Origin: an uncultured Faecalicatena sp.
GTDB lineage: Bacteria > Bacillota > Clostridia > Lachnospirales > Lachnospiraceae
Direction of reading: 5' to 3'
Assembly: GCA_948468385.1 (NCBI GenBank)
Contig: CAOKHZ010000003.1
Span: forward strand, 119,708-183,707
Length of the DNA: 64,000 nt
Below the pieces are notes generated by a model that was not told where the DNA came from, ran no database searches, and worked only from the letters and a program-made list of their open reading frames with translations. The position numbers and the translations under genes were made by a program. The stretch's first letter is position 1, and the number at the start of each line of letters is the position of its first letter. Shown here one piece after another: positions 3,474 to 25,096 of the stretch.

Positions 3474-4856
3474 ATGCATAAAAATACATTGTTAATACAT
3501 ATAGGCACACCTAAAACCGGAAGTAGCAGCATACAACACTTTTGTTATCAGAATAATGAATTGCTGATGTCTTATGGATGGTGTTATCCACGATTTGAGG
3601 ATTTTTTTAATAAGCAGTATCACGAAATAAACGGAGGCGTATTTTGCTATCCGGATGAGTTTCACCTTATGGATAAAAATCATCCTCGTTGGGAAGCGAT
3701 TTGGGACAATATACTTCACTATTTAAAATCATATAGTGTACTTTTATCAAATGAAGTGTTTTGGTATCATGAGAATAGGAAATTATTAAAAGAAGCTGTA
3801 AAGAGATGGGAAAATGTAAAAGTATTAGTATATTTAAGAAGGCAGGATTTGTATTTTGAATCACTCTACATGAACCTTATAAGAGAAGGTGAGACAAAGA
3901 GTTTTAATGAGTGGATGAATATTTTTCTGAGCGGGAATTATAAAACTCCAGACACGGAGCATATAGAAACCATTAATTATTTGCAAGAGTTGAGGGATAT
4001 AGAGGAACTCGTTGGAATTGAAAATATGCATGTCCGAACATTCGACAAAACTCGGTGGAGACATGGAAGTTTAATAGAAGATTTTATGGATGTGTTAGGA
4101 ATCAAGGGAATAAACGAAAGGGAAATTACGGAGGATGTCATTGAAAACAGAGCTTTATCGATGGAAAAACTGGAGTTATACCGTGAGCTGAACCGAAGCA
4201 TATCACAAGGAGAACGTAATGCGTGGGGCTTTTTTAGATCATCAGGGACGGCCAAACTGGACGCTTTATTTTATCCAGACATGGATGGAAAGAAAAAATA
4301 TCTGTTGATGAACTCGGAACAGAGGAAGGAAATCTGGAAAAGATTTAAAAAGGAGAACGAAGAGATCGCATCCAGGTATCGGGATGGAAAAGAGTTGTTC
4401 GAATACAAGATGCCTGACGGAGTAGTTTGGCAGCCAATGCTTTCGGACATGCAGAGAGAAATGGTAAAATCGGCTTTTAAACTTCATCTGAAGGAATATG
4501 CAGAAATGCACAGATATAGTGTGCTGCTTACGATACGGGCTTTGTGCGGTGACCGGCGGCTGGCTCTTTATGGGATTGGCAAATGCGGGAAGGAGATTCT
4601 TGAAAAATACATTCTTCCGTTTGAGATTGTGATTGATAACGATCCACATAAGGGCACGCAAGTACCGCCGGGATTGGAAGTCATCTCATCGGACGAGGTT
4701 GAGGACTGGAAGAGTATGTTTTTTGTAATTGCCATACGGGATTCTGATGAAATCGAGATGCAGATGAAAGGGCATCATCTTATAAGAAATAAGGATTATG
4801 TATTAGGTATCGACTTTTTTGAATTGGTAAATTGGGATATGAGTAAGTTTCGCTGA
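3474..4856 (+). CDS. Sulfotransferase-like protein with C-terminal Rossmann-like module
   Basis: 460 residues; ATG 3474 is preceded by GGAGGAGAATCAAG. Residues 6-17 (LIHIGTPKTGSS) match the 5'-phosphosulfate-binding loop of PAPS-dependent sulfotransferases. VLVYLRRQDLYFESLYMN, near residues 123-140, is placed like the 3'-phosphate-binding segment. The domain probably ends near residue 340. Residues ~358-455 form a second unit (LALYGIGKCGKEILEKY, then IVIDNDP) like the tails of the two GT2 enzymes at 4917 and 16548. Predicted to move sulfate from PAPS to a glycan in the cytoplasm. The PAPS synthesis genes (19924-22681), the PAP phosphatase and the sulfate importer in the same locus support this. 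The acceptor is unknown. Confidence 0.7.
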   Translation: MHKNTLLIHIGTPKTGSSSIQHFCYQNNELLMSYGWCYPRFEDFFNKQYHEINGGVFCYPDEFHLMDKNHPRWEAIWDNILHYLKSYSVLLSNEVFWYHENRKLLKEAVKRWENVKVLVYLRRQDLYFESLYMNLIREGETKSFNEWMNIFLSGNYKTPDTEHIETINYLQELRDIEELVGIENMHVRTFDKTRWRHGSLIEDFMDVLGIKGINEREITEDVIENRALSMEKLELYRELNRSISQGERNAWGFFRSSGTAKLDALFYPDMDGKKKYLLMNSEQRKEIWKRFKKENEEIASRYRDGKELFEYKMPDGVVWQPMLSDMQREMVKSAFKLHLKEYAEMHRYSVLLTIRALCGDRRLALYGIGKCGKEILEKYILPFEIVIDNDPHKGTQVPPGLEVISSDEVEDWKSMFFVIAIRDSDEIEMQMKGHHLIRNKDYVLGIDFFELVNWDMSKFR

Positions 4857-4916
4857 AGATAATTGAAGATGGTTGAAGGAAATAAAAAATAGTTGAAGAT
4901 AGAGGAAGGAGTTTTG

Positions 4917-6089
4917 ATGAAGGAAAATACTAAGATAACCGTTGTGATTGCGGTACGTAATATGCCGGAAACTTTGAGCAGGGCGATAGAAAGTGTATTG
5001 AATCAGACTTATCCATATAAGGAATTGATTGTGATGGATGGGGCTTCTACGGATGATACGGTTGACGTTATCAGAAAATATGAAGATCAACTGGCATATT
5101 GGGTGTCCGAACCGGATCGCGGCCCTTCGGATGCAATTTCAAAGGCTTTGCCTCATGCAAGCGGCGAATTGATTGGGTTTTTAGGAGCGGATGACTGGTA
5201 TGAACCATATGCCCTTGAACTTGTGGCGGCAGCATATCAGGAATCACACGCGGATCTATGCTATGGAAATATGATGACGCGCGATGGTGATATATGTGAG
5301 CTTAAGAATCTGAAAAAGTTCAGCCCTGACAAACTCTTTATGGAGGGAACGCAGTGGATAGGCGCCGTATGCGCGTTTGTAAAGAAAGAGCTGCTAGAAG
5401 CAAATTACAAAAAGAAAAATGACGTGCTTTTGACAGATTATCTGTTTTTCTTGCGGCTATATGCGGAGGGACGCAAGTTTGCACATATCGGTGATGACCG
5501 GCACATTACGAACTTTTCCATAGGCGGCAGAACCACGGCCGGCATTTATCGTGCCATTCGTGATACCGAGGTAGTGCGAAAACAGTTTCTCGAAGAGTAT
5601 CCCCATATGCGTGAGCAGTATGCGAAATACGCAGAACGTATGGAGAAAGCATATGCCATGGGAATCGCGGATTACTATAGACAAGTTCTAAGCAAAGAAC
5701 AGTATAGGGAATATGTGAAAGAACTTCCGTGTTCTAATGAAGATTGTATTTTGTTTGGTTCGGGGAAACAAGGGCAGGCTTGCGCAAGGCTGATGAGAAT
5801 ATTCAATATCAAAATGGAATGTTTTGTTGATAATGACAGTTTAAAGTGGGAGCAGGAAGTCGAAGGGCTTCCAATTAGGAGTCCGGAAATTTTGAAAGAG
5901 GCCGCCAACAAATGCGTGGTGGTGACGCCGTCCTGGGATTTTGAGGACCAGATTATGGAACAGCTCTATGCCATGGGAATTGAAAAAAGGTGCAGCATAA
6001 TACATTATTCGGATATTGCAATCCAAGTATACCGCGTATTGGGTGAAGATGTGTTGGATGACGCATGGAATAAAGGACTGATATCTTAG
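4917..6089 (+). CDS. GT2 glycosyltransferase with C-terminal Rossmann-like module
   Basis: 390 residues. ATG 4917 follows AGGAAGGAG; the frame extends upstream to a TTG at 4893 without a ribosome site. The GT-A catalytic part is typical of GT2: TVVIAVRNMPETLSRAI, the nucleotide-binding VMDGASTDDTVDVI, the acceptor loop RGPSDAISKAL and the DXD-like GADDWY. Residues ~275-370 form a second module (ILFGSGKQGQACARLM, then CFVDND) shared with 3474-4856 and 16548-17720. No membrane segment. It is paralogous to the gene at 16548 along its whole length, including the ending (DDAWNKGLIS against TDAWKRGVIR). Donor sugar unknown; one of the heptose or polyol products of the locus is possible. Confidence 0.85.
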   Translation: MKENTKITVVIAVRNMPETLSRAIESVLNQTYPYKELIVMDGASTDDTVDVIRKYEDQLAYWVSEPDRGPSDAISKALPHASGELIGFLGADDWYEPYALELVAAAYQESHADLCYGNMMTRDGDICELKNLKKFSPDKLFMEGTQWIGAVCAFVKKELLEANYKKKNDVLLTDYLFFLRLYAEGRKFAHIGDDRHITNFSIGGRTTAGIYRAIRDTEVVRKQFLEEYPHMREQYAKYAERMEKAYAMGIADYYRQVLSKEQYREYVKELPCSNEDCILFGSGKQGQACARLMRIFNIKMECFVDNDSLKWEQEVEGLPIRSPEILKEAANKCVVVTPSWDFEDQIMEQLYAMGIEKRCSIIHYSDIAIQVYRVLGEDVLDDAWNKGLIS

Positions 6090-7120: not shown

Positions 7121-8056
7121 TTGAGAAAAAGTCTAAAAGGTCTAAAAAGTCTAAATGTAAGGGATAGGTTTTTTTATGAATTATACGACAAGGTAAAATC
7201 CGGAGAGGACATTTCCCTGGTCAGTACGGATCTTGGAGCTCCCAGTCTGGATGACTTTCGGCGGGATTTTCCACAGCGATTTATCAGCGTGGGGATTGCC
7301 GAACAAAATGCCATTGCCGTGGCCGGGGGACTTTGCCTTGCCGGAAAAAAAGTTGTCACCTATGGGTTAAACCCTTTTCCGGTCACCAGGGCTTTTGACC
7401 AGATTCGAAATTTGATGGCCTCCCTCGAACTGCCCATTACCGTTGCGGCGTTGAAAGCGGGAACCGCAACGGCTGAGGCTGGAATATCGCATATGGCCCT
7501 GGAAAATATATCGCTGCTCCGCACATTAAAAAATGTCAGGATTATCAGTCCGTCAGACGAAACCATCTCAAAGATGGCGGTGGATGAGATAATAAGAAGG
7601 CCTGCGCCGCGATATATACAGTTCGATCCATTTATCACGGACGCACTTTATGATGAGACGGAAATTGATTATAAAAAGGGGTTTGCCCTAAGTGGTCCTG
7701 AGAGTGATGTTGCAATTGTGGCTATGGGGATATGGGCTCACAAGTTGAAAAAAGAGAATCTGCCGTACAGACTTATTGACTGCTTCGCACTGCCGCTTTG
7801 CGAAAAAGAGTTCTGTGACGAACTGAAACAATATAAGCGGATCATAACCATCGAAGATGGTATAGACTGTGGCGGCATCGGGAGTATGACGCTGGAAATT
7901 TTAAATGATTTTGGTGTGGCCATTCCAGTGGAACGTATGGCACTTAAGTTCGGCAACGGATATCCCCGTGTATTTTCGGATCGAAATCTGATTTTTGAGC
8001 AGGAAGGTCTTACACTGGACAATCTTAAGAAAAAACTGGAAGGCGGGGAATCATAA
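7121..8056 (+). CDS. Transketolase-like C-terminal subunit (pyrimidine-binding)
   Basis: 311 residues. The start is TTG 7121, 10 nt after a perfect AGGAGG. The ATG at 7111 abuts the AGGAGG, is out of frame and stops at 7168. The protein has the pyrimidine domain with the catalytic glutamate in SVGIAEQNAIAVAGGL, followed by a C-terminal domain (VAIVAMGIWAHK and IITIEDGIDCGGIGS). It pairs with the TPP-binding subunit at 8056, which overlaps its stop by one base. Two possible roles in this locus: making sedoheptulose 7-phosphate for GmhA, or transferring a two-carbon ketol unit to a keto-sugar nucleotide. The sequence does not decide between them. A short repeated AGTCTAAA pattern follows the start. 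Confidence 0.8.
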   Translation: MRKSLKGLKSLNVRDRFFYELYDKVKSGEDISLVSTDLGAPSLDDFRRDFPQRFISVGIAEQNAIAVAGGLCLAGKKVVTYGLNPFPVTRAFDQIRNLMASLELPITVAALKAGTATAEAGISHMALENISLLRTLKNVRIISPSDETISKMAVDEIIRRPAPRYIQFDPFITDALYDETEIDYKKGFALSGPESDVAIVAMGIWAHKLKKENLPYRLIDCFALPLCEKEFCDELKQYKRIITIEDGIDCGGIGSMTLEILNDFGVAIPVERMALKFGNGYPRVFSDRNLIFEQEGLTLDNLKKKLEGGES

Positions 8057-8904
8057 TGACGGAAGCAAGAACATGTGCGGTAACGGCATGTGATGAAATA
8101 AAAAGCTATTATGAAAAGTCCTATAAAATGCGACAAAGGTTTATTGAACTTTTTTCCAATTTAGGATTTGGTCATCTGACGACGGCATTCTCTGAGACGG
8201 AGATTCTAATCGCGTTGTTTGAAAAGGTAATGCGGTTTGATAAAGATGGGAAGCCGATAGACCGATTTGTTTTAAGCAAGGGACACGGAGCCGGAATGGT
8301 GTATCCGATTCTGGAAGATATGGGGATATTTTCGAAGGAAGAAATCGATGAAATGGTGCAAATTGGCGGGGATTTGACAAAGATACGTGAATTTGTATAT
8401 CCGGGATTCGAGTTTTATGGCGGTTCCCTTGGTATTGGAATCGGTATGGCGGCCGGTCTTGCATTGGGTCTTAAGCAAAATAGGAAGGACAGTATCGTTT
8501 TCTGTCTGTGCGGAGATGCGGAATGCTATGAGGGATCCGTGTGGGAGGCGATGCTTTTTGCGGCACATAATCGGTTGAATAACCTTGTAATAATCGTGGA
8601 TCGGAATTATCTAGGTGTATCTGATTTTACGGAAAACATGTGCGCTTTCGAACCGTTTGCAGATAAGTGGAGAAGCTGCAATTGGGATGTCCGCGAAATC
8701 AACGGACATTCTTATGAAGAATTGTTTGACACGTTAGTGAATGTTTACAAGAGACCGTCCTCCAAACCGCTATGTATCATAGCGGATACCGTGAAAGGGA
8801 AAGGAGTTGGCGACTTATGCAATATTCCGTTAAAGCATGGCTATATGCCGACGGGAGAAAATGCTGATAATACAATGAAGAAACTGGAGCGATTTGGTAT
8901 ATGA
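8056..8904 (+). CDS. Transketolase-like N-terminal subunit (TPP-binding)
   Basis: 282 residues; ATG 8056 shares one base with the TAA of the partner subunit. The TPP diphosphate/metal motif is present as CLCGDAECYEGSVWEA (GD...E) followed ~25 residues later by the metal-ligand region VDRNYLGVS. The N-terminal SKGHGAGMVYPIL is the usual substrate-side histidine segment of transketolases. The gene order is C-terminal half first, then N-terminal half; the reverse is more common in two-gene transketolases. The 3' end overlaps the radical SAM gene by ATGA, so translation is probably coupled. Confidence 0.82.
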   Translation: MTEARTCAVTACDEIKSYYEKSYKMRQRFIELFSNLGFGHLTTAFSETEILIALFEKVMRFDKDGKPIDRFVLSKGHGAGMVYPILEDMGIFSKEEIDEMVQIGGDLTKIREFVYPGFEFYGGSLGIGIGMAAGLALGLKQNRKDSIVFCLCGDAECYEGSVWEAMLFAAHNRLNNLVIIVDRNYLGVSDFTENMCAFEPFADKWRSCNWDVREINGHSYEELFDTLVNVYKRPSSKPLCIIADTVKGKGVGDLCNIPLKHGYMPTGENADNTMKKLERFGI

Positions 8905-10406
8905 GTGTGAATAAAACGGATTTACTACTGATTCATCCCAATGATCAAAAGGCCGTCTATGGGGACACGATAAAATATACGGCATGCGAGCCGCCGTATT
9001 GGTGCGCGGTAGCGGCGCAATACTGTCTTGATAAGGGACTGCTGGTTCGGATTGTGGATGCTGAAGCGGAGGATTTATCCGCCCGGCAGGTGGCAGATAA
9101 GGTAAAGGAATATGCCCCGGCGTTGACGGGAATTTTTGTCACCGGGACAAATCTTTCCGCGTCCACGCAGAAAATGCCAGGAGCGGATGCAACCTGCAAG
9201 GCGATAAAGGAAATGGGAAACTATCCGATTTTTTTATGGGGACTCCATCCTTCGGCACTGCCAGAACGAACCTTAATGGAAAATGACGCTGATTATGTCG
9301 TGACGGGTGAAGGGTTTGAGACGATTGTAAATCTTACACGTTTTCAAAGGGGTGAAGACGTATCGTTTACGGCGGAGTCACTTGGTGGTTTGTGCTATCG
9401 AAAAGCTGACAGCATTGAACGTTTTGGTACTTCGAAACTGCTTGATACGGTACAGATACCAATGCCGGCATGGGGGCTGCTTCCTATGGAAAAATACATG
9501 CCGCATAATTGGCACGTCATGGGAGATGACAGACCAGAGGATGCAAAGGGAAGGTATGGCGTTATTTCCACATCAATAGGGTGCCCCTTCAACTGCTCCT
9601 ATTGTGCCATATCGGCATTGTTTGGCACAAAGAGACTGCGGTTTTGGGATATTGACCGGGTGATGGATGAGTTCGAACGTCTGGTAAATGTATATAATGT
9701 GAAATACATAAAGATTCTGGATGAATGTTTTGTATTGAAAAAGGATTATGTGAGTGAACTTTGTGACAAGCTTGCAGAGAAAAAATATGATTTGAATATC
9801 TGGGCGTATGCCAGGGTGGACACCGTGGATCAAGAGATATTGGAAAAGCTGAGAAAAGCGGGAATCCGATGGCTTGCATATGGAATTGAAAGCGCGGATG
9901 CGGACGTTCTCTCTGAGGTGTCAAAAGCACAGTATACCGCTGACAAGACAAGGACGGTCATGCAGTGGACAAAGGATGCCGGAATCAATATACTTGCGAA
10001 CTTTATGTTCGGACTGCCCGACGATACAAAGGAGTCCATGGAAAAGACGTTGAGACTTTGCAGAGAGGTCAATCCTGAGTGGATCAATTTTTATGTGACA
10101 ATGCCGTATCCGGGATCAAAAGATTACTTTACGGCCGTGAAAAACGGAAAAATTAAAAATGACCGTTGGATTGAATATGCACAGTATAGTTATGAATGTC
10201 GTCCCGCCGGAGGAAAATATCTGACCCCGAAGGAAATCCTTGCATTCAGGGATTATGCGTTTAACGCCTTTTTCGAGGGGAATGACAGATATTTTGACAT
10301 GATACGGCAGAAGTTTGGCCAGCAATATGTAGACAGTATTAAGGACATCACCAAGAATAAACTTCGCAGGAAGTTGCTAGAAGATGAAAGTGATATTTCT
10401 ATATGA
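8901..10406 (+). CDS. B12-binding-domain radical SAM enzyme
   Basis: 501 residues, ATGA overlap at both ends. Residues 1-~170 look like a cobalamin-binding Rossmann domain (LLLIHPNDQKAVYGDT, then FLWGLHPSALPERTL). The radical SAM cluster motif follows in GCPFNCSYCAIS (CX3CX2C), then the usual barrel segments ILDECFVLKKDYV, WAYARVDTV and WLAYGIESADADVL. The layout is that of the BchE/HpnR-like B12 radical SAM class, which carries out C-methylation and ring rearrangements. The classical DXHXXG corrinoid motif is not obvious, so true B12 binding is uncertain. Its coupling to transketolase and sugar-nucleotide oxidoreductases suggests it modifies the GDP-heptose carbon skeleton or an intermediate. 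Confidence 0.8.
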   Translation: MSVNKTDLLLIHPNDQKAVYGDTIKYTACEPPYWCAVAAQYCLDKGLLVRIVDAEAEDLSARQVADKVKEYAPALTGIFVTGTNLSASTQKMPGADATCKAIKEMGNYPIFLWGLHPSALPERTLMENDADYVVTGEGFETIVNLTRFQRGEDVSFTAESLGGLCYRKADSIERFGTSKLLDTVQIPMPAWGLLPMEKYMPHNWHVMGDDRPEDAKGRYGVISTSIGCPFNCSYCAISALFGTKRLRFWDIDRVMDEFERLVNVYNVKYIKILDECFVLKKDYVSELCDKLAEKKYDLNIWAYARVDTVDQEILEKLRKAGIRWLAYGIESADADVLSEVSKAQYTADKTRTVMQWTKDAGINILANFMFGLPDDTKESMEKTLRLCREVNPEWINFYVTMPYPGSKDYFTAVKNGKIKNDRWIEYAQYSYECRPAGGKYLTPKEILAFRDYAFNAFFEGNDRYFDMIRQKFGQQYVDSIKDITKNKLRRKLLEDESDISI

Positions 10407-11380
10407 CGAGTATGAAGAACATGGATAAGCAAAGTAAAATATATGTCGCAGGACATACAGGACTCGTAGGTTCCGCCATTGTCCGAGAGTTGAAAAAGCA
10501 GGGATATGGCAATCTTCTTATCATGCGGCATAAAGAACTTGATCTTCGGGATCAACAAGCAGTAAATGACTGGTTTAAAAAGGAGATGCCGGAATTTGTG
10601 TTTCTTGCGGCCGCGACGGTAGGCGGGGTTGTCGTAAACGACCGGTTTCCGGGGATGTTCTTTTATGACAATATGACAATCGGCACGAACGTGATTCATG
10701 CGGCATATGAAAATGGCGTGAAAAAACTTCTGTATCTTGGAAGCAATTGCATCTATCCAAGGGAAGCACCGCAGCCCTACAAGGAGGAATCACTCCTGAC
10801 AGGGCTTCCTGAAAAAACAAACGAGGCGTATGCCATCGCGAAGATTGCCTGCGTGAAGATGTGTGAGTTTTATAACCGCCAATATGGGACGAACTTTATT
10901 TCTTGTATGCCTTGCAGCGCCTATGGCCCCGGAGATAATTTTGATCCGGAAGGCTCCCACGTCGTGCCGGCATTGATTCGAAAATTTCATGAAGCAAAGA
11001 AATCAGGCGCTTCCGAGGTAGTGATGTGGGGAACCGGGAAACCGTATCGGGAATTCATATACATTGATGATATTGCAAAAGCAGCGATATTTTTGATGAA
11101 TCAATATTCTGGAAATGAACCGGTTAACATAGGCACGGGAACGGAATATACCATAGGAGAGTTGGCGGAAATCATAAGGCGTGTGGTCGGATTCGAGGGA
11201 GAAATCGTTCATGATACGTCGAAACCGGACGGAATCCCTAAGAAACTTCTGGATTCCTCAAAGATTTTTTCACTTGGATGGAGACCTGAAACAGATTTTG
11301 AATCTGGTATTCATATCACGTATGAGGATTTTGTGAAACATGAGAAAAATTACATTGAAAAGGGAGGAAAATTACGATGA
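10403..11380 (+). CDS. GDP-L-fucose synthase/ColC-like C4 reductase-epimerase
   Basis: 325 residues, ATGA overlap with the radical SAM gene. Extended SDR: GHTGLVGSAIVRELKKQG (NADP site), SNCIYP with the family cysteine, and the catalytic Y-X3-K in NEAYAIAKIA. CMPCSAYGPGDNFDPEGSHV is typical of GDP-fucose synthase (Fcl/WcaG). Relatives in Campylobacter heptose clusters (Cj1428 type) reduce GDP-4-keto-heptoses, and ColC in the colitose pathway acts after ColD. The neighbouring Cj1427-like and ColD-like genes favour such a role here rather than fucose; no GDP-mannose 4,6-dehydratase is visible. Whether it also epimerises C5 cannot be read from the sequence. Confidence 0.8.
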   Translation: MTSMKNMDKQSKIYVAGHTGLVGSAIVRELKKQGYGNLLIMRHKELDLRDQQAVNDWFKKEMPEFVFLAAATVGGVVVNDRFPGMFFYDNMTIGTNVIHAAYENGVKKLLYLGSNCIYPREAPQPYKEESLLTGLPEKTNEAYAIAKIACVKMCEFYNRQYGTNFISCMPCSAYGPGDNFDPEGSHVVPALIRKFHEAKKSGASEVVMWGTGKPYREFIYIDDIAKAAIFLMNQYSGNEPVNIGTGTEYTIGELAEIIRRVVGFEGEIVHDTSKPDGIPKKLLDSSKIFSLGWRPETDFESGIHITYEDFVKHEKNYIEKGGKLR

Positions 11381-12312
11381 GCAAAATACTTGTGACAGGC
11401 GGAGCGGGATATATCGGGTCGGTGCTGGTTCCCATGCTCCTTGACAAAGGACACGACGTGACCGTGGTGGATAACTTCTACTATAATCAGCCAACTCTTC
11501 TTGACCAGTGCATCAGGGAAGGATTTCACATTGTACGTGGTGACGTCCGTGACAGGGAACTGATGAAAAGCTTGATGGAGGATAAGGACTATATCATTCC
11601 CCTTGCGGCCATGGTAGGGTTTCCTTTATGTAAAAAGGATGAGACGGCGGCAAAAACCATCAATCTTGATGCCGTCCGTATGATTATTGAATTGAGGCGG
11701 CCCGATCAGAAAATCATTTATCCATGTACAAACAGCGGATATGGTGTCGGGCAGGGAGACAAGTTCTGTACCGAGGATACGCCAATGAACCCCATATCGC
11801 TCTATGGAATTACGAAATCAGAGGCAGAAAAGGCCGTGCTGGATTCCGGCAATTCCCTCACCTTCCGCTTTGCAACGGTGTTCGGGGCTTCCCCTCGCAT
11901 GAGGCTGGATCTTTTGGTTAATGACTTTGTATACCGGGCGGTCTTTGATAAAACTGCCGTAATCTTCCAAGGGGAATTCAAGCGGAACTATATCCATATC
12001 AGGGATGCTGCTGCTGCTTTTGTTTTTGCTATTGAGCACTTTGAAGAGATGAAGGGGAAGCCGTATAACTGTGGATTGTCGTCGGCGAACCTTTCAAAAA
12101 TCGAGTTATGCGAAAAGATCAAGGAGCATCTACCGGATTTTGTATATCTGGAAGCTCCGGTAGGCGAAGATCCGGATAAAAGAGACTATATCGTTTCTAA
12201 TGAACGTTTGGAGAAAGCAGGATGGAAGCCAAAGTATTCTCTTGATGATGGGATAGAAGAACTGATTAAGGTATATACGGTTATTAAGAAGAACCAGTAT
12301 TCAAACATCTAA
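11377..12312 (+). CDS. GDP-heptose 4-dehydrogenase-like SDR (Cj1427 family)
   Basis: 311 residues, ATGA overlap with the reductase gene; GGAGG upstream. Extended SDR with VTGGAGYIGSVLVPMLL, the active-site segment YPCTNSGYGVG and the catalytic LYGITK. From memory, the run PLAA-VG-PLCKK, then FRLATVFG-SPRMRLDLLVND and GEDPDKRDY-VSN, is very close to Campylobacter jejuni Cj1427. That enzyme oxidises C4 of GDP-D-glycero-manno-heptose with tightly bound NAD and recycles it with 2-oxoglutarate. This would produce the 4-keto sugar needed by the ColD-like enzyme at 13281. The match was recalled, not computed. Confidence 0.75.
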   Translation: MSKILVTGGAGYIGSVLVPMLLDKGHDVTVVDNFYYNQPTLLDQCIREGFHIVRGDVRDRELMKSLMEDKDYIIPLAAMVGFPLCKKDETAAKTINLDAVRMIIELRRPDQKIIYPCTNSGYGVGQGDKFCTEDTPMNPISLYGITKSEAEKAVLDSGNSLTFRFATVFGASPRMRLDLLVNDFVYRAVFDKTAVIFQGEFKRNYIHIRDAAAAFVFAIEHFEEMKGKPYNCGLSSANLSKIELCEKIKEHLPDFVYLEAPVGEDPDKRDYIVSNERLEKAGWKPKYSLDDGIEELIKVYTVIKKNQYSNI

Positions 12313-12323
12313 ACGGAGGGACA

Positions 12324-13262
12324 ATGGAATCTGTAGCTGTGACGATACGTGTATGTCTGCCAATTTATATCATGATTGCGGTTGGATATATGGCAAATAG
12401 ACGCGGCATGGTAAGCCGGCTTACACGAAAAGAGCTAAATACAAGTGTTTTTCGTATTTTTCTCCCGCTACTGCTCTTTGAGAATATGTATACCTCGCAT
12501 TTGGATGTGAGCAACATAAAGGTACTTTTGTTTGCAGTTGCAAGTGTGATTCTTATATTCCTGATATGCCATGCGGTTATTTTTCACGTGGTTGGAAACA
12601 AGTCAATGGCGGCAACGATGGTACAGGGAATGTATCGGAGCAATTTTGCACTTCTTGGAATTGCACTTACGGAGACGCTGTACGGTTTGGGAGAAACGGA
12701 AGTCACGGGAATGCTTGTGGCGGTAATTATACCGTTGTACAACGTACTTGCAGTGATACTTTTTGAAAGCAGCTGCCAGAACGAGAAAACCGGGATGGGA
12801 AGGATTGTGAAAGGAATCTTGAAGAACCCGCTGATTTTATGGACATGCATAGGATTGGCTTTCAACCTTCTTCATATCAGTATTCCGGTTGCAGTTAACA
12901 GTGCGGTGGTATCCCTGGGACAAGTTGCGACACCACTGGCACTGTTTGTGATGGGAGGGAATTTTGAGGCTGCAAAGACAAGAAAGAATAGGAAGCCATT
13001 AATGGCCGTATCAATGACGAGACTTATCATAGTACCGGTTTTGTGCACGGCCATGTCCGTCGTTTTAGGTTTTAGAGGAAAATCGCTATATGCATTATTT
13101 CTGATGTATGCGACGCCGACTGCCGTTGCATCTTACGCGATGGCATCGTCGATGGGAGGCGATGAAGATCTCGCTGGAGAGATTGTTCTTGTGACAACGG
13201 CGGTATCCATGGTTTCTATTGGGATTGGTGTTTATGTGCTCACCGCGTTGCGGCTCATATGA
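12324..13262 (+). CDS. AEC-family (auxin efflux carrier) membrane transporter
   Basis: 312 residues, GGAGGG before ATG 12324. About ten hydrophobic helices, in two five-helix halves separated by a polar loop near residues 150-160. IYIMIAVGYMANRRGMVS, RIFLPLLLFENMY and YRSNFALLGIALTETLYG are typical of the AEC/malonate transporter family. The helix with ATPLALFVMGGNF begins the second half. Members move organic anions such as malate or malonate. Why one sits between two sugar-nucleotide enzymes is unclear; 2-oxoglutarate or 2-hydroxyglutarate exchange linked to the Cj1427-like enzyme is one speculation. Spacing on each side is under 20 nt, so it belongs to the operon. Confidence 0.8.
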   Translation: MESVAVTIRVCLPIYIMIAVGYMANRRGMVSRLTRKELNTSVFRIFLPLLLFENMYTSHLDVSNIKVLLFAVASVILIFLICHAVIFHVVGNKSMAATMVQGMYRSNFALLGIALTETLYGLGETEVTGMLVAVIIPLYNVLAVILFESSCQNEKTGMGRIVKGILKNPLILWTCIGLAFNLLHISIPVAVNSAVVSLGQVATPLALFVMGGNFEAAKTRKNRKPLMAVSMTRLIIVPVLCTAMSVVLGFRGKSLYALFLMYATPTAVASYAMASSMGGDEDLAGEIVLVTTAVSMVSIGIGVYVLTALRLI

Positions 13263-13280
13263 AACAAGGATGGAGGAAAA

Positions 13281-14450
13281 ATGCTAAACATACCATTAAT
13301 GCAAAACAATATTGACAAGGATGATCTAAATATATTGATTGATTTTTTACAGTCATCGGATCGGTTTACGAATGGTCCGAAGGTGCGTGAATTTGAAGAG
13401 GCATGGTCGCAGTGGCTGGGCGGAGGATACTACTGCGTGTTCGTCAATTCCGGCTCCTCCGCGAACTATATCACGATGGCGGCACTTAAGGAGAAGTACG
13501 GGGATGGTGAGATTATTGTTCCTCCGATCGGATGGACAAGTGATATCGCCTCGGTCATCACGGCCGGCTTCAAGCCGGTATTTGCCGACGTAAATCTCCA
13601 TAATCTCGCCATCAACGAGGATGAGATTGAATCAAAAATCACCGGTAACACCAGGGCAGTATTGTTGACTCATGTATTAGGATATAACGGTCTGTCGGAC
13701 AAAATTATGGATTTATGCAAAAGCAAAAATATTATCTTGATTGAGGATACCTGCGAGTCCCATGGGGCGGTCTTTAGAGGGCAAAAATGTGGCTCTTTTG
13801 GAGACATTTCCAATTTTTCTTTTTACTATGCACATCATATGAGCACGATTGAAGGCGGCATGATTTGCACAAAGGATAAAGAACTGTACCGTCTGATGAG
13901 GATGATTCGTTCCCACGGCATGCTCAGGGAATGTAGTGACGAAAGCTATATGGCGGAAATTGCGAAGAAATACCCTGAAGTTCATCCGGAATTTATCTTC
14001 ACCGTGCCGGGATTTAACATGAGGAGTACTGAGTTGAATGCTGTGCTTGGATTAAATCAATTAAAACGTCTGGATGCCAATGTGGAAAAAAGAAGAAAAA
14101 ACTACGATTTGTTTATAAACAATCTGGATGGTGGCAAGTATTATACGGATTTTGCACATGAAGGAAACAGTAATTACGCTTTTGTCGTTATGCCGCACGC
14201 GTCCGTGACCGGTTTGTATGACAGAATGATTCAGGGATTTCGTGATGAGAATGTGGAATTCAGAAGAGGCACGGCCGGCGGCGGTAACATGATAAGGCAA
14301 CCCTATATAAGAAAACGATATCCCCATATTAGTCCTGCCGATTATCCGAATGCGGAATATATCCATGAAAATGGCGTGTACATAGGCAATTATCCTGACC
14401 TGCCAAAGGAGAAGATAGAAGGATTATGTGAGATGCTAAATTCTTTGTAA
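13281..14450 (+). CDS. ColD-like PLP-dependent sugar-nucleotide 3-dehydratase
   Basis: 389 residues, GGAGG before ATG. DegT/DnrJ/EryC1 fold: PLP phosphate-binding segment VNSGSSANYIT (55-65), pyridine-binding aspartate in IEDTCESHGA (D156), and the position of the internal-aldimine lysine in SFYYAHHMSTIEGG (180-193). The lysine is replaced by histidine (H185). That replacement is known from GDP-4-keto-6-deoxymannose 3-dehydratase (ColD) and the CDP-sugar E1 enzyme (RfbH), which remove the C3 hydroxyl instead of transaminating. There is no CX2CX7C-type iron-sulfur ligand pattern as in E1, and the length matches ColD (~388). Predicted to make a 3-deoxy-4-keto sugar nucleotide. Confidence 0.82.
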   Translation: MLNIPLMQNNIDKDDLNILIDFLQSSDRFTNGPKVREFEEAWSQWLGGGYYCVFVNSGSSANYITMAALKEKYGDGEIIVPPIGWTSDIASVITAGFKPVFADVNLHNLAINEDEIESKITGNTRAVLLTHVLGYNGLSDKIMDLCKSKNIILIEDTCESHGAVFRGQKCGSFGDISNFSFYYAHHMSTIEGGMICTKDKELYRLMRMIRSHGMLRECSDESYMAEIAKKYPEVHPEFIFTVPGFNMRSTELNAVLGLNQLKRLDANVEKRRKNYDLFINNLDGGKYYTDFAHEGNSNYAFVVMPHASVTGLYDRMIQGFRDENVEFRRGTAGGGNMIRQPYIRKRYPHISPADYPNAEYIHENGVYIGNYPDLPKEKIEGLCEMLNSL

Positions 14451-14486
14451 TAGGATGTTTTGAATCTCGATGAAGGAGGATGTCTG

Positions 14487-15812
14487 ATGATAGCGGTTAT
14501 TATGGCAGGTGGAAAGGGAACGCGCATTTCTTCTGTTACTTCAGACGTTCCCAAGCCGATGATTCCTATAAATGGAATGCCCGTGATGGAGTATCAGATC
14601 GAGCGTTTAAGAACGCAGGGAATAAGGGACGTCATCATTACCGTATCACATAAAAAAGAAGTGATAATGGATTATTTTGGAGACGGGAAAAAATTATCGC
14701 GGGTAACGGGAAAGCCTTTTGATGTCAATATTTCATACTATGAGGAGGATGCTCCCCTTGGAAATGCAGGGGCTTTGTTTCGGCTGAGGGATTGGCTTAA
14801 GGAAGATTTTTTGCTCATCAATGCCGATGTGGTATTTGATATTGACATAGAAGGATTTGTTGATTTTCATAAAAACATGGGCGGACTTGCAACATTATTT
14901 ACACATCCCAACAACCACCCGTTTGATAGTGGATTACTTTTTGTAGATAAGGACAAAACATTAACCGCATGGCTCTCCAGAGAGGATGCGCGGCCTGAGT
15001 ATTACAAAAATAGGGTAAACGCCGGTATTCATATCATGACTCCTAAAATTCTTGATATCACAAGGGAGCGATTTATAAAAGAATATGGACAACTGCCTGA
15101 GAAGATTGACTTGGATAGAGATTTGTTAAAGCCTCTTGCCGGAACCGGAATGGTGTATTGTTATGACAGTTGCGAATATGTCAGGGACATGGGCACTCCA
15201 AAACGGTATGAACAAGTTTGCCGTGATATGGCATTGGGAAATATCGGCATAAAGAATCTTCAAAAAAAACAGAGAGCAATTTTTCTTGACAGAGATGGAA
15301 CGATAAATAAAGAGGTGGGAATTCTTAGTAATATTGACCGATTTGAGCTTCTCCCGGGTGTCGGCGAGGCAATTCAAAAGATTAATCAGTCAGGCTATCT
15401 TGCAATCGTCATCACAAATCAGCCAGTGATTGCAAGAGGAGAATTATCCTATGAAGGATTGGAAGAAATTCACAATAAAATGGAAACACTTTTGGGAAAA
15501 GAGGGGGCATACCTTGACGGCATTTACTACTGTCCGCATCATCCCCACAGCGGATACGAGGGCGAGGTCAGGCAATTAAAGGTAGACTGTGCCTGCCGAA
15601 AGCCCAAGCCGGGGATGTTGTATGCGGCGGCGGAGGCGTTCCACATAGATTTAAAAAGATCGTGGATGATAGGGGACGGAGAACGTGACATTGCCGCAGG
15701 GAGAAGCGCGGGTTGTAAGACAGCCTTGATAGGAAGGGAAGCTTTTGGACAAGATATGAGCGTGGATTCATTGTCAGAAGCAGTTCTGATGATGCTGGAT
15801 GAGAAAAAATGA
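14487..15812 (+). CDS. hddC-gmhB: Fused GDP-heptose guanylyltransferase and heptose-bisphosphate phosphatase
   Basis: 441 residues from ATG 14487 (GGAGGA six nt upstream); the frame opens at a TTG at 14460. Residues 1-~240 are a nucleotidyltransferase: MIAVIMAGGKGTRISS, then the metal aspartate in LINADVVFDIDIEGF. Residues ~258-430 are a GmhB-type HAD phosphatase: FLDRDGTINKE (nucleophile and acid aspartates), the zinc-loop cysteines and histidines in YYCPHHPHSGYEG and VDCACRKPKPG, and MIGDGERDIAAG. These are the HddC and GmhB steps of GDP-D-glycero-D-manno-heptose synthesis, normally separate proteins. The chemical order is GmhA, HddA, GmhB, HddC, so the fusion joins the last two steps. Confidence 0.87.
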   Translation: MIAVIMAGGKGTRISSVTSDVPKPMIPINGMPVMEYQIERLRTQGIRDVIITVSHKKEVIMDYFGDGKKLSRVTGKPFDVNISYYEEDAPLGNAGALFRLRDWLKEDFLLINADVVFDIDIEGFVDFHKNMGGLATLFTHPNNHPFDSGLLFVDKDKTLTAWLSREDARPEYYKNRVNAGIHIMTPKILDITRERFIKEYGQLPEKIDLDRDLLKPLAGTGMVYCYDSCEYVRDMGTPKRYEQVCRDMALGNIGIKNLQKKQRAIFLDRDGTINKEVGILSNIDRFELLPGVGEAIQKINQSGYLAIVITNQPVIARGELSYEGLEEIHNKMETLLGKEGAYLDGIYYCPHHPHSGYEGEVRQLKVDCACRKPKPGMLYAAAEAFHIDLKRSWMIGDGERDIAAGRSAGCKTALIGREAFGQDMSVDSLSEAVLMMLDEKK

Positions 15813-15866
15813 AGGACTCGTTATCGGACGCGGTTTGGATGATACTGGGAGGAGAGAACGTGAAGG

Positions 15867-16517
15867 ATGCGTGATTCATGGAAATACATAAACGACTTGT
15901 TTGTCAGATATCCCAAGCTGGAAGAAACAAGAGGCGATTTACTGGACGCGTATGAGCTGCTCAGGCGGTGCTTTGAGGCCGGGAACAAACTGCTTGTTGC
16001 GGGAAACGGAGGCTCGGCGGCAGATGCAGAGCATATCGCGGGAGAATTAATGAAAGGATTTTTGTGTAAACGTCCCCTTTCAGAGGAGTTGCGACATCGT
16101 TTTGCTGAAATAGAACCAATAAAAGGCCGGGAAATATCAGAGCGGCTTCAGGGCGCGTTGCCGGTTCTGCCACTAACGTCACAAGATGCGTTATCCACAG
16201 CCTTTTTAAATGATATGGACGTTGAAAACATATTTGCACAGAAGCTTTTAGGTTATGGCAAAAAGGGGGATGTTTTCCTGGCGATTTCAACAAGCGGCGA
16301 TAGTGAGAACATCATTCATGCGGCAATTACGGCAAGGGCCTTGAATATAAAGGTAATCGGGCTGACGGGAAGTACGGGCGGCAAACTGAAAAGCTACTGC
16401 GACGTGCTAGTGAAAGTGCCTGAAAGTGAAACCTATAAGATTCAAGAGTTGCATTTACCAATTTATCATAGTTGGAGCTTGATGCTTGAAGAATATTTCT
16501 TTGGCATGGGAGAATGA
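15867..16517 (+). CDS. gmhA: Phosphoheptose isomerase
   Basis: 216 residues, somewhat longer than E. coli GmhA (192). GGAGGAGAG lies 9 nt before ATG 15867. The SIS fold is evident: LLVAGNGGSAADAEHIAGEL (substrate loop) and FLAISTSGDSENIIHA (phosphate-binding STSG). The helix-loop between them carries an extra stretch (residues ~65-100). It isomerises sedoheptulose 7-phosphate to D-glycero-D-manno-heptose 7-phosphate. It follows the fused HddC-GmhB gene and, with HddA, completes the GDP-heptose pathway in the locus. The paired transketolase subunits could feed it sedoheptulose 7-phosphate. Confidence 0.92.
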   Translation: MRDSWKYINDLFVRYPKLEETRGDLLDAYELLRRCFEAGNKLLVAGNGGSAADAEHIAGELMKGFLCKRPLSEELRHRFAEIEPIKGREISERLQGALPVLPLTSQDALSTAFLNDMDVENIFAQKLLGYGKKGDVFLAISTSGDSENIIHAAITARALNIKVIGLTGSTGGKLKSYCDVLVKVPESETYKIQELHLPIYHSWSLMLEEYFFGMGE

Positions 16518-16547: not shown

Positions 16548-17720
16548 ATGTATGAGCCACGAATTACGGTAATGATTCCGGTATTTAATATGCAGGGGAC
16601 GATTACCAAGGCCATAGACAGCTTTTTTAGGCAGGATTATAAAAACAAGGAACTCTTGGTTTTGGACGGAGGCTCGACGGATGACACCGTGAATCTCATA
16701 AAACAATATGGCGGTTCCGTTGATTATTTTGTATCACAAAAAGATGGCGGGCCGTCCGACGCAATGGCAAAAAATTTAAAATATGCCACGGGCGACCTGG
16801 TTGCAATACTTGGAGCAGATGACTGGTATAACCAGGGTGCTCTTACGGCAGCGGCAAATACGTATAGGAAACACCAGGCCGACGTTCTTTATGGAGATTG
16901 CTGTTGTATACATTCTACTGGTGAAAGAGTGATCAAAAGTGCAAAAAACAAGGTGTTGGAAGACTTATATTATTATAATGCCGTCTTTACCAATGCCGCC
17001 TTTGTAAAAAAAGAATTGTTAGAGAAATATTATGAACAATACTGGCGGAAAAATAAGGAGAGAATCCATATTTCCACAGATCATTATCTTTGGCTTCTTC
17101 TTTATCATCAGGGAAAGCTTTTTGAATATATAGACTCAAGGGATGCTCTGACCAATTATTCGGTTTCAGGAAGATCCGCGGAAAAAGAGTATGAGGGCTG
17201 CATGGATGATGCAGAGATATTTCGGCTGGTTGTCGGAAATGACAGTGAAGCCGTAAAAAAATATTTACCCAAATTCAAAAGATATTTTGCGGCGCGTACT
17301 ATCTTATATTATGAAGATACCATGGCAAAAGAAGATTTTGAACTTGAACTTAAGAAATACCTGCCAGAAGGGGAACGTTATGTGATTTTTGGCACGGGAC
17401 ATATCGGAAATAAGGCAGAGCGGTTGGTGAGGCTTAGCAACGGGAAACTGGAATATTTTGTTGACAATAACTATGTCGCCAATACGGGAGACTATTTGGG
17501 TTACAAGATTTGTTCGCCGGAAAGGATAAAACAAGAGAAAAACCTATCTGTCATTATTTCTGCATTGGGGTGTGAAAATGCCATAATGAACCAACTGAAA
17601 GAGATGGGACTGGATGCTTCCATAAAGGTTATAGATTATTCTGATCTATGTGAGAACATACAAAATACGCTAGGTGTGGAGATTCTGACGGATGCATGGA
17701 AAAGGGGCGTTATCAGGTAG
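16548..17720 (+). CDS. GT2 glycosyltransferase with C-terminal Rossmann-like module
   Basis: 390 residues. Catalytic part: ITVMIPVFNMQGTITKAI, LVLDGGSTDDTVNLI, DGGPSDAMAKNL and the metal site GADDWYNQGAL. It aligns by eye with the GT2 at 4917 over the full length and the two are paralogues. The C-terminal module starts near residue 280 (VIFGTGHIGNKAERLV, then EYFVDNNY) and may read out or bind a nucleotide or sugar. Just upstream, the words GAATATTTCTTT and TTTGATATGGGAGA partly repeat the end of gmhA. The stop is one base from the next start. Cytoplasmic; donor unknown. Confidence 0.85.
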   Translation: MYEPRITVMIPVFNMQGTITKAIDSFFRQDYKNKELLVLDGGSTDDTVNLIKQYGGSVDYFVSQKDGGPSDAMAKNLKYATGDLVAILGADDWYNQGALTAAANTYRKHQADVLYGDCCCIHSTGERVIKSAKNKVLEDLYYYNAVFTNAAFVKKELLEKYYEQYWRKNKERIHISTDHYLWLLLYHQGKLFEYIDSRDALTNYSVSGRSAEKEYEGCMDDAEIFRLVVGNDSEAVKKYLPKFKRYFAARTILYYEDTMAKEDFELELKKYLPEGERYVIFGTGHIGNKAERLVRLSNGKLEYFVDNNYVANTGDYLGYKICSPERIKQEKNLSVIISALGCENAIMNQLKEMGLDASIKVIDYSDLCENIQNTLGVEILTDAWKRGVIR

Positions 17721-18231: not shown

Positions 18232-18936
18232 ATGAAAGAAAACAAAACGGCGAGAATTTATGTGGCAAGTTCTATTTATGACAAGCCATTAAAGGGAGAA
18301 AGTTATAGTCCGAGGAAAGACGAGGCTGTCTTACAAGTTGGAGCCGCATTGACGGATCAGAGGATTTATAGCGGGGTAATGACAGATGATACGGGTGAGA
18401 ATATTTCGAAAAAAAATCAACAGTATTGTGAACTGACGGGGCTATATTGGATATGGAAAAATGCCAGGGAAGATTATGTCGGGATGGTACAGTACCGCAG
18501 GCATTTCCTCTTGCCGGAAAACTGGCTGGAAAGAATGATAGAGAATGACATCGATGTGATTTTGCCGGTACCGCTTTATGTTGCCCCGTGCCTTTCTAAG
18601 AATTATAGAGAGCGACACATAGCGTCGGATTGGGATTTTTTGATGGAACACATCCGGAAAAACCTTCCCGCGGAATACGAGCCGGCAACGAAATTTTTTG
18701 ACGGGAGCCTATATTCACCATGTAATATGCTGATTGCTAAAAAGCCTATCTTTGATGAGTTATGTTCGTGGCTGTTTCCGATTTTGGACGCGGTGGCCGC
18801 GCATATCGGGCGAAAGGAAGACAAGTACCAGAACCGTTACCCGGGCTTTATGTCGGAGAGGCTTATGACTTATTTTTTTGAGGGACGAAAACGTCAATAT
18901 AACGTAGTATATGCAAATAAAAACTTTTTGATTTGA
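18232..18936 (+). CDS. DUF4422 protein (putative glycosyltransferase)
   Basis: 234 residues; ribosome site AGGCGGG before ATG 18232. ARIYVASSIYDKPL, then NISKKNQQYCELTGLYWIWK, YVGMVQYRRHFLLPE, DVILPVPLYV, and the C-terminal LYSPCNMLIAKKPIFDELC and YPGFMSERLMTYFF are the signature blocks of DUF4422. This family is found in capsular and exopolysaccharide loci and thought to be glycosyltransferase-like. It is in the same frame as 17722-18111, separated by stops at 18109 and 18166. Together they would form a protein of the common two-part layout. Confidence 0.8.
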   Translation: MKENKTARIYVASSIYDKPLKGESYSPRKDEAVLQVGAALTDQRIYSGVMTDDTGENISKKNQQYCELTGLYWIWKNAREDYVGMVQYRRHFLLPENWLERMIENDIDVILPVPLYVAPCLSKNYRERHIASDWDFLMEHIRKNLPAEYEPATKFFDGSLYSPCNMLIAKKPIFDELCSWLFPILDAVAAHIGRKEDKYQNRYPGFMSERLMTYFFEGRKRQYNVVYANKNFLI

Positions 18937-19892: not shown

Positions 19893-19923
19893 TGAGTAAG
19901 ATTAGTGATGACAGGAGATGAGA

Positions 19924-20853
19924 ATGATGAATTTTGAATCAATGGCCTCTGGTGCCGATTATGGCAGTCTGGACAAGTTAGAAGCGGAAGCCATATATAT
20001 TATGCGGGAGGTCGTAGCGGAGTGCGAGAAGCCGGTGATGCTTTACTCCATTGGAAAAGACAGCTCTGTCATGCTGCACCTTGCATTAAAGGCCTTCTAT
20101 CCGGAGAAACCGCCGTTCCCATTTATGCATATCGATACAACATGGAAGTTCCAGGAGATGATTACCTTTCGTGATCGGATGGCAGAAAAGTATAGCCTGA
20201 ACATGATTGTCTATACCAATGAAGACGGTGTGAAAAACGGAATCAATCCCTTTGATCACGGGGCGGCATATACGGATATCATGAAAACGGAAGCTTTGAA
20301 GCAGGCTCTTACGAAATATGGATTTACCGCGGCATTTGGCGGCGGCAGAAGAGACGAGGAGAAATCAAGGGCAAAAGAACGGGTCTTTTCTTTCCGAAAC
20401 AGTGCGCAGGCCTGGGAACCGAAGAACCAACGCCCGGAGCTATGGAAACTTTATAACACTCATATGAAAACGGGCGAGAGTATACGGGTTTTTCCACTTT
20501 CTAATTGGACGGAAAAGGATATCTGGCAATATATCCGCAGAGAAAACATTGAGATTGTACCGCTGTATTTTGCCAAGGAGCGGCCGGTGGTTTACCGGGA
20601 CGGAAACATCATCATGGTGGATGATGATAGGATGAAGCTGCTTCCCGGAGAGGAAATACGGCATAAGAAGGTGCGTTTTAGGACGCTTGGATGCTATCCG
20701 CTGACAGGCGGAGTTGAATCCGAGGCGGATACTCTGGATGCAATCGTGGCTGAGATTCTTGGAGCCGTCACGTCGGAGCGTACCAGCCGTGTCATAGATA
20801 AGGACGGCGGCAGTGCAAGCATGGAAAAGAGAAAGAGAGAGGGGTACTTTTGA
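19924..20853 (+). CDS. cysD: Sulfate adenylyltransferase subunit 2
   Basis: 309 residues. AGGAG at 19913-19917 best suits the ATG at 19924 (or 19927); the ATG at 19918 is too close. PAPS-reductase-type ATP pyrophosphatase fold with the PP-loop [20 protein letters not shown], then [57 protein letters not shown] and the C-terminal [16 protein letters not shown]. All are hallmarks of CysD. With CysN it makes adenosine 5'-phosphosulfate from sulfate and ATP. The next gene starts one base after its stop. Confidence 0.95.
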
Positions 20854-20854
20854 A

Positions 20855-22681: not shown

Positions 22682-22690
22682 GGGAGACAA

Positions 22691-23470
22691 ATGTGGAATA
22701 TAGAGCTTGAGAATGCAAAAAGGGCGGCAGTTGCTGCTGGATTTGAAATTATGAAAGTATACGAAAACCACGAAAATTTGGAAATCTCATACAAGGATGA
22801 CGATATGCCGCTGACCATTGCGGACAGACGATCGAATGATTTGATTGTTTCTATGCTTCGAAGAGAATTTCCGAAGTATGCCATTTTGTCTGAGGAGGAA
22901 AAAGATAATAGGGGGCGGCTTTTAAATGACTATTGTTTTGTCATAGATCCGTTGGACGGAACGAAAGAGTTTATCAAACGCAACGGGCAGTTTACGGTGA
23001 ATATTGCACTCTCCTACAAAGGGAAGTCTGTTATGGACGTGATCTATGTTCCCGTTACACAAGAATTATATTATGCATCCGAGGGAGATGGTGCGTATAT
23101 AAAATACGGGGATGGAAGTATAAAAAAACTACATGTATCAGAGATTACGGATAAATCAAATATACGCGTGGTGATGAGTCGTTCCCATAGCTGTCATGAA
23201 ATGGATGAACTCATTAAAAAATACGGTTTTAAGAATCTCATCAGTATGGGAAGTTCTCTCAAAGGCTGCCTGATTGCAGAAGGTAAAGCGGAACTTTATT
23301 ATCGGTATAATCCAACAATGGAGTGGGATACGGCGGCAATGCAGTGTATCGTGGAGGAGGCCGGCGGGATTTTTAAGCAAATGGATGATACAGAAATGAG
23401 ATATAACCGGAATCATTCTTTGAACGATAAAGGGTTTTATGTAATAAACAGAGTCGAAAACAGACTTTAG
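22691..23470 (+). CDS. cysQ: 3'(2'),5'-bisphosphate nucleotidase
   Basis: 259 residues, 9 nt after cysNC. Inositol-monophosphatase fold with the metal ligands SEEEKD (67-72) and DPLDGTKEF (86-94), and the third metal aspartate in MEWDTAAMQCIVEEAGG. KRNGQFTVNIAL is typical of CysQ. It hydrolyses the PAP left by sulfotransferases and so relieves product inhibition. Its place directly behind cysDNC supports steady PAPS consumption by a sulfotransferase. Confidence 0.92.
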   Translation: MWNIELENAKRAAVAAGFEIMKVYENHENLEISYKDDDMPLTIADRRSNDLIVSMLRREFPKYAILSEEEKDNRGRLLNDYCFVIDPLDGTKEFIKRNGQFTVNIALSYKGKSVMDVIYVPVTQELYYASEGDGAYIKYGDGSIKKLHVSEITDKSNIRVVMSRSHSCHEMDELIKKYGFKNLISMGSSLKGCLIAEGKAELYYRYNPTMEWDTAAMQCIVEEAGGIFKQMDDTEMRYNRNHSLNDKGFYVINRVENRL

Positions 23471-25076: not shown

Positions 25077-25096
25077 CAGCAAAATGGGGGAATGTG

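Follow-up and report, generated by a model that had tools for sequence, protein, structure and literature searches.

A gene cluster within a 64,000-nucleotide stretch of DNA from an uncultured Faecalicatena sp. (assembly GCA_948468385.1, contig CAOKHZ010000003.1, positions 119,708 to 183,707; hereafter the window) probably encodes the synthesis of a guanosine diphosphate (GDP)-linked 3-deoxy-heptose that is branched at C4. The gene content, the residues at functional sites and the conserved co-occurrence of these genes are observed directly. In the proposed pathway (genes are named by start position; Table 1), enzymes resembling GmhA, HddA, GmhB and HddC would convert sedoheptulose 7-phosphate to GDP-D-glycero-manno-heptose, which 11377 would oxidise at C4. 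The C3 hydroxyl would then be removed by 13281 through ColD-type chemistry with pyridoxamine phosphate and glutamate. The split transketolase encoded by 7121 and 8056 would move two carbons, as a ketol (hydroxyacetyl) unit, to the C4 ketone from a ketose, hydroxypyruvate or a similar donor, yielding a nine-carbon branched sugar, and the radical S-adenosylmethionine (SAM) enzyme 8901 and the Fcl-like short-chain dehydrogenase/reductase (SDR) 10403 would complete it, in one order or the other. Transfer to the C4 ketone is proposed because different thiamine diphosphate (ThDP) enzymes replace one another in the same slot at related loci and because the transketolase has altered substrate-side residues.

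The preliminary description of this DNA had placed a pathway to a plain GDP-3-deoxy-heptose at 10403-16517. All of the genes that it named are present as open frames where it put them; the HddA-like gene 6097 falls outside that span, and the two transketolase halves (7121 and 8056) and the radical SAM gene (8901), which are sited between the kinase gene and 10403, had been omitted. Consecutive genes in the run 7121-8056-8901-10403-11377 overlap by 1-4 nt, and at the 7121/8056 junction the stop and start codons overlap in TAATG (8054-8058).

Enzymes of the proposed pathway

The kinase, the nucleotidyltransferase-phosphatase fusion and the isomerase fit GDP-manno-heptose synthesis, as had been proposed, despite scores below the NCBIfam equivalog cut-offs compared (score/cut-off in bits: HddA 161/600, HddC 90/300, GmhB 166/178, GmhA 125/209); the four names thus rest on best family and context. 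Kinase 6097 is 41-60% identical to the kinases of other cellular Cj1427-like clusters. For 11377, the earlier assignment as Cj1427-like is borne out: among SDRs of solved structure the best match is 6vo6 (384 bits, versus 82 for the next), which we take to be Cj1427, the chain's own name being only putative sugar-nucleotide epimerase. By sequence, 11377 is specifically like a Cj1427-type GDP-manno-heptose 4-dehydrogenase, and C4 oxidation is its predicted role. With Cj1427 of Campylobacter jejuni serotype HS:2 and the pyridoxal phosphate (PLP)-dependent C3-dehydratase of serotype HS:5, C4 oxidation and C3 deoxygenation have been carried out in vitro, and the products were termed novel (PMC10680097). 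Given this precedent, GDP-3-deoxy-4-keto-heptose is a well-supported predicted intermediate, and the heptose route of the preliminary description stands as far as that compound.

In the DegT-fold enzyme 13281, His185 replaces the PLP lysine of transaminases, as had been noticed: SFYYAHHMSTIEGG aligns with SSFYSHHIATMEGG of ColD, its best relative of solved structure (199 bits). This site is His in nine and Lys in seven of 16 aligned DegT proteins, and on account of His185 the reading of 13281 as a PLP aminotransferase was rejected. The C-x-C-x2-C motif of the iron-sulfur E1 type is absent from 13281, which for that reason fits the ColD subtype; the motif is present in the DegT proteins of Solidesulfovibrio magneticus and of locus L062. 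In a tree of 34 DegT proteins, the pair from the window and its close relative does not fall inside the ColD clade; it groups with the DegT proteins of T4-like phage cassettes (100/100) in a clade of its own that neighbours the ColD clade. The ColD clade (100/99) takes in the Azospirillum DegT proteins and those of phage loci L087, L092, L098 and L118, and the S. magneticus protein pairs with that of phage locus L135 (100/99), with L062 nearest to that pair (90/83). A single 4-dehydrogenase family is thus found with DegT proteins of several lineages and with ThDP enzymes of three classes, which points to shared function and not to one inherited block. These patterns argue for a cluster that was put together independently more than once, for a common function.

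Residues of the split transketolase were mapped in human numbering via alignments with the human and Carboxydothermus enzymes. H37, H77, D155, E157, N185, K244, H258 and E366, presumably the cofactor-binding and catalytic residues, are conserved, and four positions that we take to face the substrate are changed (H110I, H416K, D424A and R474P). In 12 other split transketolases (those of L019 and G401 set aside), position 110 is always His and position 474 always Arg or Lys. The genome has three further split transketolases, with PF00456 scores of 182-211 bits versus about 79-80 for the N-terminal half in the window, which is 33-35% identical to them; by sequence, the window enzyme is an outlier among the split transketolases of its genome. 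Its genes are linked, both by the operon and by co-occurrence, to a pathway for a 4-keto deoxy-sugar nucleotide, the setting in which ThDP-dependent C-branching of sugars would be sought.

Relatives of the N-terminal half occur in 188 plasmid records, and among the 30 listed they are mostly ordinary transketolases; beyond Streptomyces, three contexts from that list include two that look catabolic and one that is related to pectin. On a Paenibacillus plasmid (L066:12100-14930), an N-terminal half lies inside a gene annotated as an SDR and adjoins a C-terminal half, rfbF and rfbG (CDP-glucose), so that a CDP-linked branched sugar is possible there. In Solidesulfovibrio carbinolicus (L067:7383-9927), a split transketolase and an SDR annotated as FabG lie within a pseudaminic acid-type cluster.

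By its domains (PF04055 and the B12-binding PF02310), 8901 is a B12-type radical SAM enzyme, with cobalamin binding predicted; its CxxxCxxC motif is invariant across 24 sequences. Close, full-length relatives (39.8-43.2%) were found in four of 72,556 plasmid records, the next matches reaching only 26.5-27.7%. All four records carry a Cj1427-like gene, a DegT gene with His at the PLP-lysine site (DegT-His) and a ThDP enzyme pair, more than 20 kb away in two of them. No relative of 8901 was found on the Cj1427-like plasmid record of A. thermophilum.

Relatives in bacteria and phages

Of 12 genomes of the genus, two have the cluster: the window's own and that of a mouse-gut relative (L019), whose copy is near-identical. 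G401 duplicates the L019 genome, and the two were counted once. Relatives of 11377 are rare: matches with E ≤ 1e-60 occur in 2 of 397 genomes of the family, and at 1e-80 in 3 of 388 genomes of the phylum (own genome included), and a Cj1427-like gene at 54-63% identity is found in seven of the 72,556 plasmid records. A scan of genome contigs yielded L019 and a single DegT of the Lys type (L020), and nothing else. Twelve cellular loci with a Cj1427-like protein of at least 54% identity were compared, namely the window, L019, G381, G612, G495, five from Azospirillum, and one each from Sinorhizobium fredii and S. magneticus. A ThDP pair is present in eight and DegT-His in seven, and all seven of the latter have the ThDP pair. 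Within the stretches read, neither was found in G381, G612 (a 12.2 kb contig), G495 or S. fredii. The Azospirillum and Solidesulfovibrio loci are on plasmids. In A. argentinense about 16 kb separate the DegT gene from that of the 4-dehydrogenase. In S. magneticus a single run holds genes for the radical SAM enzyme, the kinase, the E1 pair, an Fcl-like protein, DegT-His and a Cj1427-like protein, with one NUDIX gene between.

Single-protein searches of viral contigs returned no relatives, but a query built from an alignment of eight Cj1427-like proteins recovered 228 loci, of which the best 80 were kept. L098, where no Cj1427 frame was labelled, was dropped to leave 79, and the 28 of these with less than 6.5 kb upstream were excluded, so that the main count covers 51; radical SAM genes were counted only above 150 bits (L135 and L158 fell below and were excluded). 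In a set of phage records, transketolase matches reached only 25-29%, in unannotated or unrelated records, and 11377 had one match (33%). Radical SAM, ThDP enzyme, kinase, DegT and Cj1427-like genes occur together in 29 of the 51 loci, mostly in that order. The block in L115 is flanked by genes for a major head protein, UvsY, UvsW, a late sigma factor and SbcCD; this contig, the only one so examined, is by gene content a T4-like genome. A paper on pelagimyophages mentions radical SAM cassettes (PMC7029224).

Three kinds of enzyme fill the ThDP slot of the phage loci: a transketolase pair, a pair resembling pyruvate dehydrogenase E1 (E1-type), or one thiamine pyrophosphate (TPP) enzyme of 617-619 aa. 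The TPP enzyme of L107, the one searched, is nearest to the thiamine enzyme 8rph (309 bits, with acetolactate synthases at 280) and falls under the acetolactate synthase cut-off; 8rph is presumably the YerE-like JanthE. A ThDP enzyme is present in 33 of 34 loci with DegT (transketolase 9, E1 22, TPP 2) versus 8 of 17 without (all E1; Fisher p 6.6e-5), or, with one locus per 90% cluster, in 18 of 19 versus 3 of 8 (p 0.0037). Every phage locus with a radical SAM gene has both DegT and a ThDP enzyme (31/31; 16/16 clusters). His occupies the PLP-lysine site in all 55 readable phage DegT proteins, with a gap there in three more. The phage transketolases have H110 changed to Phe and D155 to Glu in all 12 N-terminal halves, and H416 changed to Gly and D424 to Ala or Ser in all 13 C-terminal halves. 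In a second type of phage locus (L124, L137, L145, L146, L147, L151 and L157), Cj1427-like and E1 genes are present, DegT and radical SAM genes were not found, and most have Fcl-like SDRs; perhaps these loci specify branching without 3-deoxygenation.

Alternative products and the radical step

Several points weigh against a branched product. All of the reactions are deduced from sequence, above all the transketolase acceptor and the radical step. The changes at H416 and D424 are less telling because these sites vary in the 12 other split transketolases (H416 is kept in only six, D424 in five), so that H110 and R474 alone distinguish the window enzyme there, and R474 is retained in the phage transketolases. 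No ThDP enzyme was found in phage locus L148, which has DegT-His, and eight phage loci have a ThDP enzyme without DegT; Azospirillum B510 has the transketolase but DegT was not found. The co-occurrence counts are not independent, as the loci are partly related: the Azospirillum loci are related to each other, and the window loci likewise, so that few independent events are represented. Enzyme 10403 is 54-58% identical to Fcl proteins at loci with GDP-mannose 4,6-dehydratase (GMD) and to the second Fcl of the genome, and 30-43% identical to the SDRs found in other cellular heptose clusters; in seven phage loci it reaches 50-51%. Acting as a C4 reductase, it would compete with branching. The genome carries a GMD gene outside the window, on contig C37 (TIGR01472, 494 bits, cut-off 415). 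A 2025 review reports no characterised ketone-accepting transketolase (PMC12247030).

The product might be a plain GDP-3-deoxy-heptose, with 10403 epimerising or reducing C4, the transketolase supplying only sedoheptulose 7-phosphate and the radical enzyme acting elsewhere. The Ser, Tyr, Lys, Cys and His of E. coli Fcl, presumably the Ser-Tyr-Lys and Cys/His epimerase residues, are all conserved in 10403, and farther downstream is a gene (23561) that resembles those for ribulose-phosphate epimerase. With Campylobacter enzymes, both steps and the reduction at C4 also proceed in vitro (PMC10680097). This product is nevertheless unlikely: the substrate residues of the transketolase are altered, three other split transketolases are available in the genome, the same slot is filled elsewhere by E1- and acetolactate synthase-type enzymes, which are not known as sources of sedoheptulose 7-phosphate, and the radical SAM gene travels with the set. 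A transketolase that merely supplies sedoheptulose 7-phosphate was rejected on these grounds and kept only as a rival. The earlier claim that a ColC/Fcl-like C4 reduction ends the pathway is not supported, given that the operon also encodes a ThDP enzyme with changes where the substrate binds, and a radical SAM enzyme with relatives that accompany DegT-His and Cj1427-like genes.

It is very unlikely that 13281 and 10403 act as ColD and ColC on GDP-4-keto-6-deoxymannose supplied by the genomic GMD, giving GDP-colitose or another 3,6-dideoxyhexose and leaving the heptose genes to another sugar. The C37 GMD exceeds its family cut-off, and loci combining GMD, DegT-His and Fcl are known in the bacterial family (L056, L062). 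The operon itself is without GMD, 13281 clades with phage heptose-cassette DegT proteins and not with ColD (100/100), and no GMD is named beside DegT-His in the Azospirillum and Solidesulfovibrio gene tables, which are incomplete. Neither 10403 (NF047922, 454.9 bits) nor the second Fcl of the genome (467 bits) reaches the equivalog cut-off of 500 for GDP-L-fucose synthase/ColC. The statement that no GMD is seen holds within the window, where there is no strong match (best PF16363 score 98.6 bits), but not for the genome, so that the exclusion of colitose is not strict; what survives of the earlier conclusion is the route to GDP-3-deoxy-4-keto-heptose, and not the plain end product. Locus L062:2769-11859 (genome G029, same family) has two GMD genes, Fcl, a DegT with both His and the C-x-C-x2-C motif, and an E1 pair; this set possibly specifies a GDP-linked branched 3,6-dideoxyhexose, as expected of a hexose version.

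If the sugar is branched, 8901 may also make it C-methylated, a possible though doubtful refinement. The predicted structure (pLDDT 88, pTM 0.90) has AprD4 as its nearest fold, then TsrM at an equal E-value, with MgmA and CysS also among the nearest. The B12-binding domain and the presence of the cobalamin-dependent methyltransferases TsrM, MgmA and CysS in this list speak for methylation; AprD4 is a radical diol dehydratase acting on a sugar, and the conserved gene set is explicable without methylation. The modelled fold alone does not decide between methylation, dehydration and ring closure.

A bolder and unlikely reading is that 8901 is a sugar carbocyclase, which would abstract hydrogen at C7 and close C7 onto the branch ketone in a redox-neutral step, giving a pyranose-fused cyclopentane. 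An acetyl branch, from an E1- or acetolactate synthase-type enzyme, would then lead to the formula and skeleton of caryose, and the window transketolase to the 9-hydroxy analogue, a 4,8-cyclo-3-deoxy-nonose. In that case the phage cassette of five genes would comprise the sugar-specific carbocyclic steps, with GmhB and HddC from elsewhere and no need for a reductase if closure is the last step, and caryose biosynthesis would be explained. Caryose (4,8-cyclo-3,9-dideoxy-nonose), from Pseudomonas (Trinickia) caryophylli, likewise has nine carbons, a 3-deoxy position and C4 bonded to an extra carbon (PMC9026286). It is isomeric with 3-deoxy-4-C-acetyl-heptose (both C9H16O7), a likeness of structure.

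Surroundings, known systems and implications

Table 1. Genes of the operon and flanking glycosyltransferase genes, with window coordinates
Position	Strand	Predicted product	Basis
4893..6089	+	Glycosyltransferase family 2 (GT2), possible user of the sugar	PF00535
6097..7092	+	GHMP kinase, HddA-like (heptose 7-phosphate to 1,7-bisphosphate)	NF049969 best family, 161 bits (cut-off 600)
7121..8056	+	Transketolase C-terminal half (pyrimidine-binding), ThDP enzyme subunit	PF02779/PF02780
8056..8904	+	Transketolase N-terminal half (ThDP-binding), ThDP enzyme subunit	PF00456
8901..10406	+	Radical SAM enzyme with B12-binding domain	PF04055 + PF02310
10403..11380	+	SDR, GDP-fucose-synthase-like ketoreductase/epimerase	NF047922 455 bits (cut-off 500)
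11377..12312	+	SDR, Cj1427-like GDP-glycero-manno-heptose 4-dehydrogenase	6vo6 384 bits
12324..13262	+	Permease within the operon	PF03547; also in L019
13281..14450	+	PLP-dependent C3-dehydratase, ColD-like (His185)	ColD 199 bits; PF01041 248 bits
14460..15812	+	Fused sugar-1-phosphate nucleotidyltransferase (HddC-like) and GmhB-like HAD phosphatase	PF00483, GmhB families
15867..16517	+	GmhA-like sedoheptulose 7-phosphate isomerase	TIGR00441 125 bits (cut-off 209), SIS domain
16548..17720	+	GT2 glycosyltransferase, possible user of the sugar	PF00535

DUF4422 proteins are encoded both in the window (18232-18936) and in a phage cassette (L090:5862-6692), and are candidate glycosyltransferases for the sugar. 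Downstream of the cluster, at 19918-23470, lie genes for CysD, a CysN-CysC fusion and CysQ, all above their NCBIfam cut-offs. Two flagellin-like genes (L057:14255-15949, by Pfam, and L057:6956-8623, with an identical start; G000:C3) are found beside GT2 and TPR genes, one of them directly upstream of the window; perhaps the region is a flagellin glycosylation island. With a flagellin gene directly upstream of the window and the Cys genes downstream of the cluster, one possibility for the destination of the sugar is flagellin, in a sulfated flagellin glycan. The open reading frame at 3474-4856, whose L019 copy starts LLIHIGTPKTGSSS, looks sulfotransferase-like by eye; Pfam gave no family match for it or for the frames at 844, 2269 and 17692. 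Rpe-like, IspD-like and zinc alcohol dehydrogenase genes are consecutive at 23561-26167, a row that resembles genes for CDP-ribitol synthesis (TarI/TarJ).

The CDP-hexose of yersiniose A derives from a 4,6-dehydratase. There YerE, acting on CDP-3,6-dideoxy-4-keto-glucose and pyruvate, likewise uses ThDP to add two carbons at the ketone of a 3-deoxy-4-keto sugar nucleotide (PMC12247030), but with a CDP-hexose and a YerE-type decarboxylase in place of the GDP-heptose, 4-dehydrogenase, split transketolase and radical SAM enzyme found here. Modification of GDP-heptose in C. jejuni shares a homologous 4-dehydrogenase and PLP C3-dehydratase, which make GDP-3-deoxy-4-keto-heptose in vitro; the words 'transketolase' and 'thiamin' are absent from that account (PMC10680097), and the HS:5 strain's own route differs in using a 4,6-dehydratase and yielding 3,6-dideoxy-heptoses (PMC10440746). 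The 2025 review assigns three ThDP classes to branched sugars, namely decarboxylases, E1-type enzymes and transketolases. For miharamycin and amipurimycin, a split transketolase has been proposed to attach hydroxyacetyl to a keto sugar as a branch; the 13 split-transketolase candidates that the review gives by gene context are all from Streptomycetes and none is characterised (PMC12247030). Those are antibiotic pathways, in contrast to the GDP-heptose context in gut Bacillota, Azospirillum and phages described here. Among titles, abstract openings and passages from the open-access literature, outside which most subscription journals lie, no description was found of this gene set, of branched GDP-heptoses or of caryose genes.

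If the reading of a branched product is correct, the operon would lead to a C-branched heptose by way of a split transketolase that uses a ketone as acceptor, a reaction which, according to the 2025 review, has been proposed but never shown (PMC12247030). One rare sugar chemistry would then be shared by gut Bacillota, by soil and sediment bacteria such as Azospirillum and a sulfate reducer, and by T4-like phages. This would raise the question of what the phages attach such a sugar to. The compactness of the cassette makes the proposed chemistry amenable to study with purified proteins.

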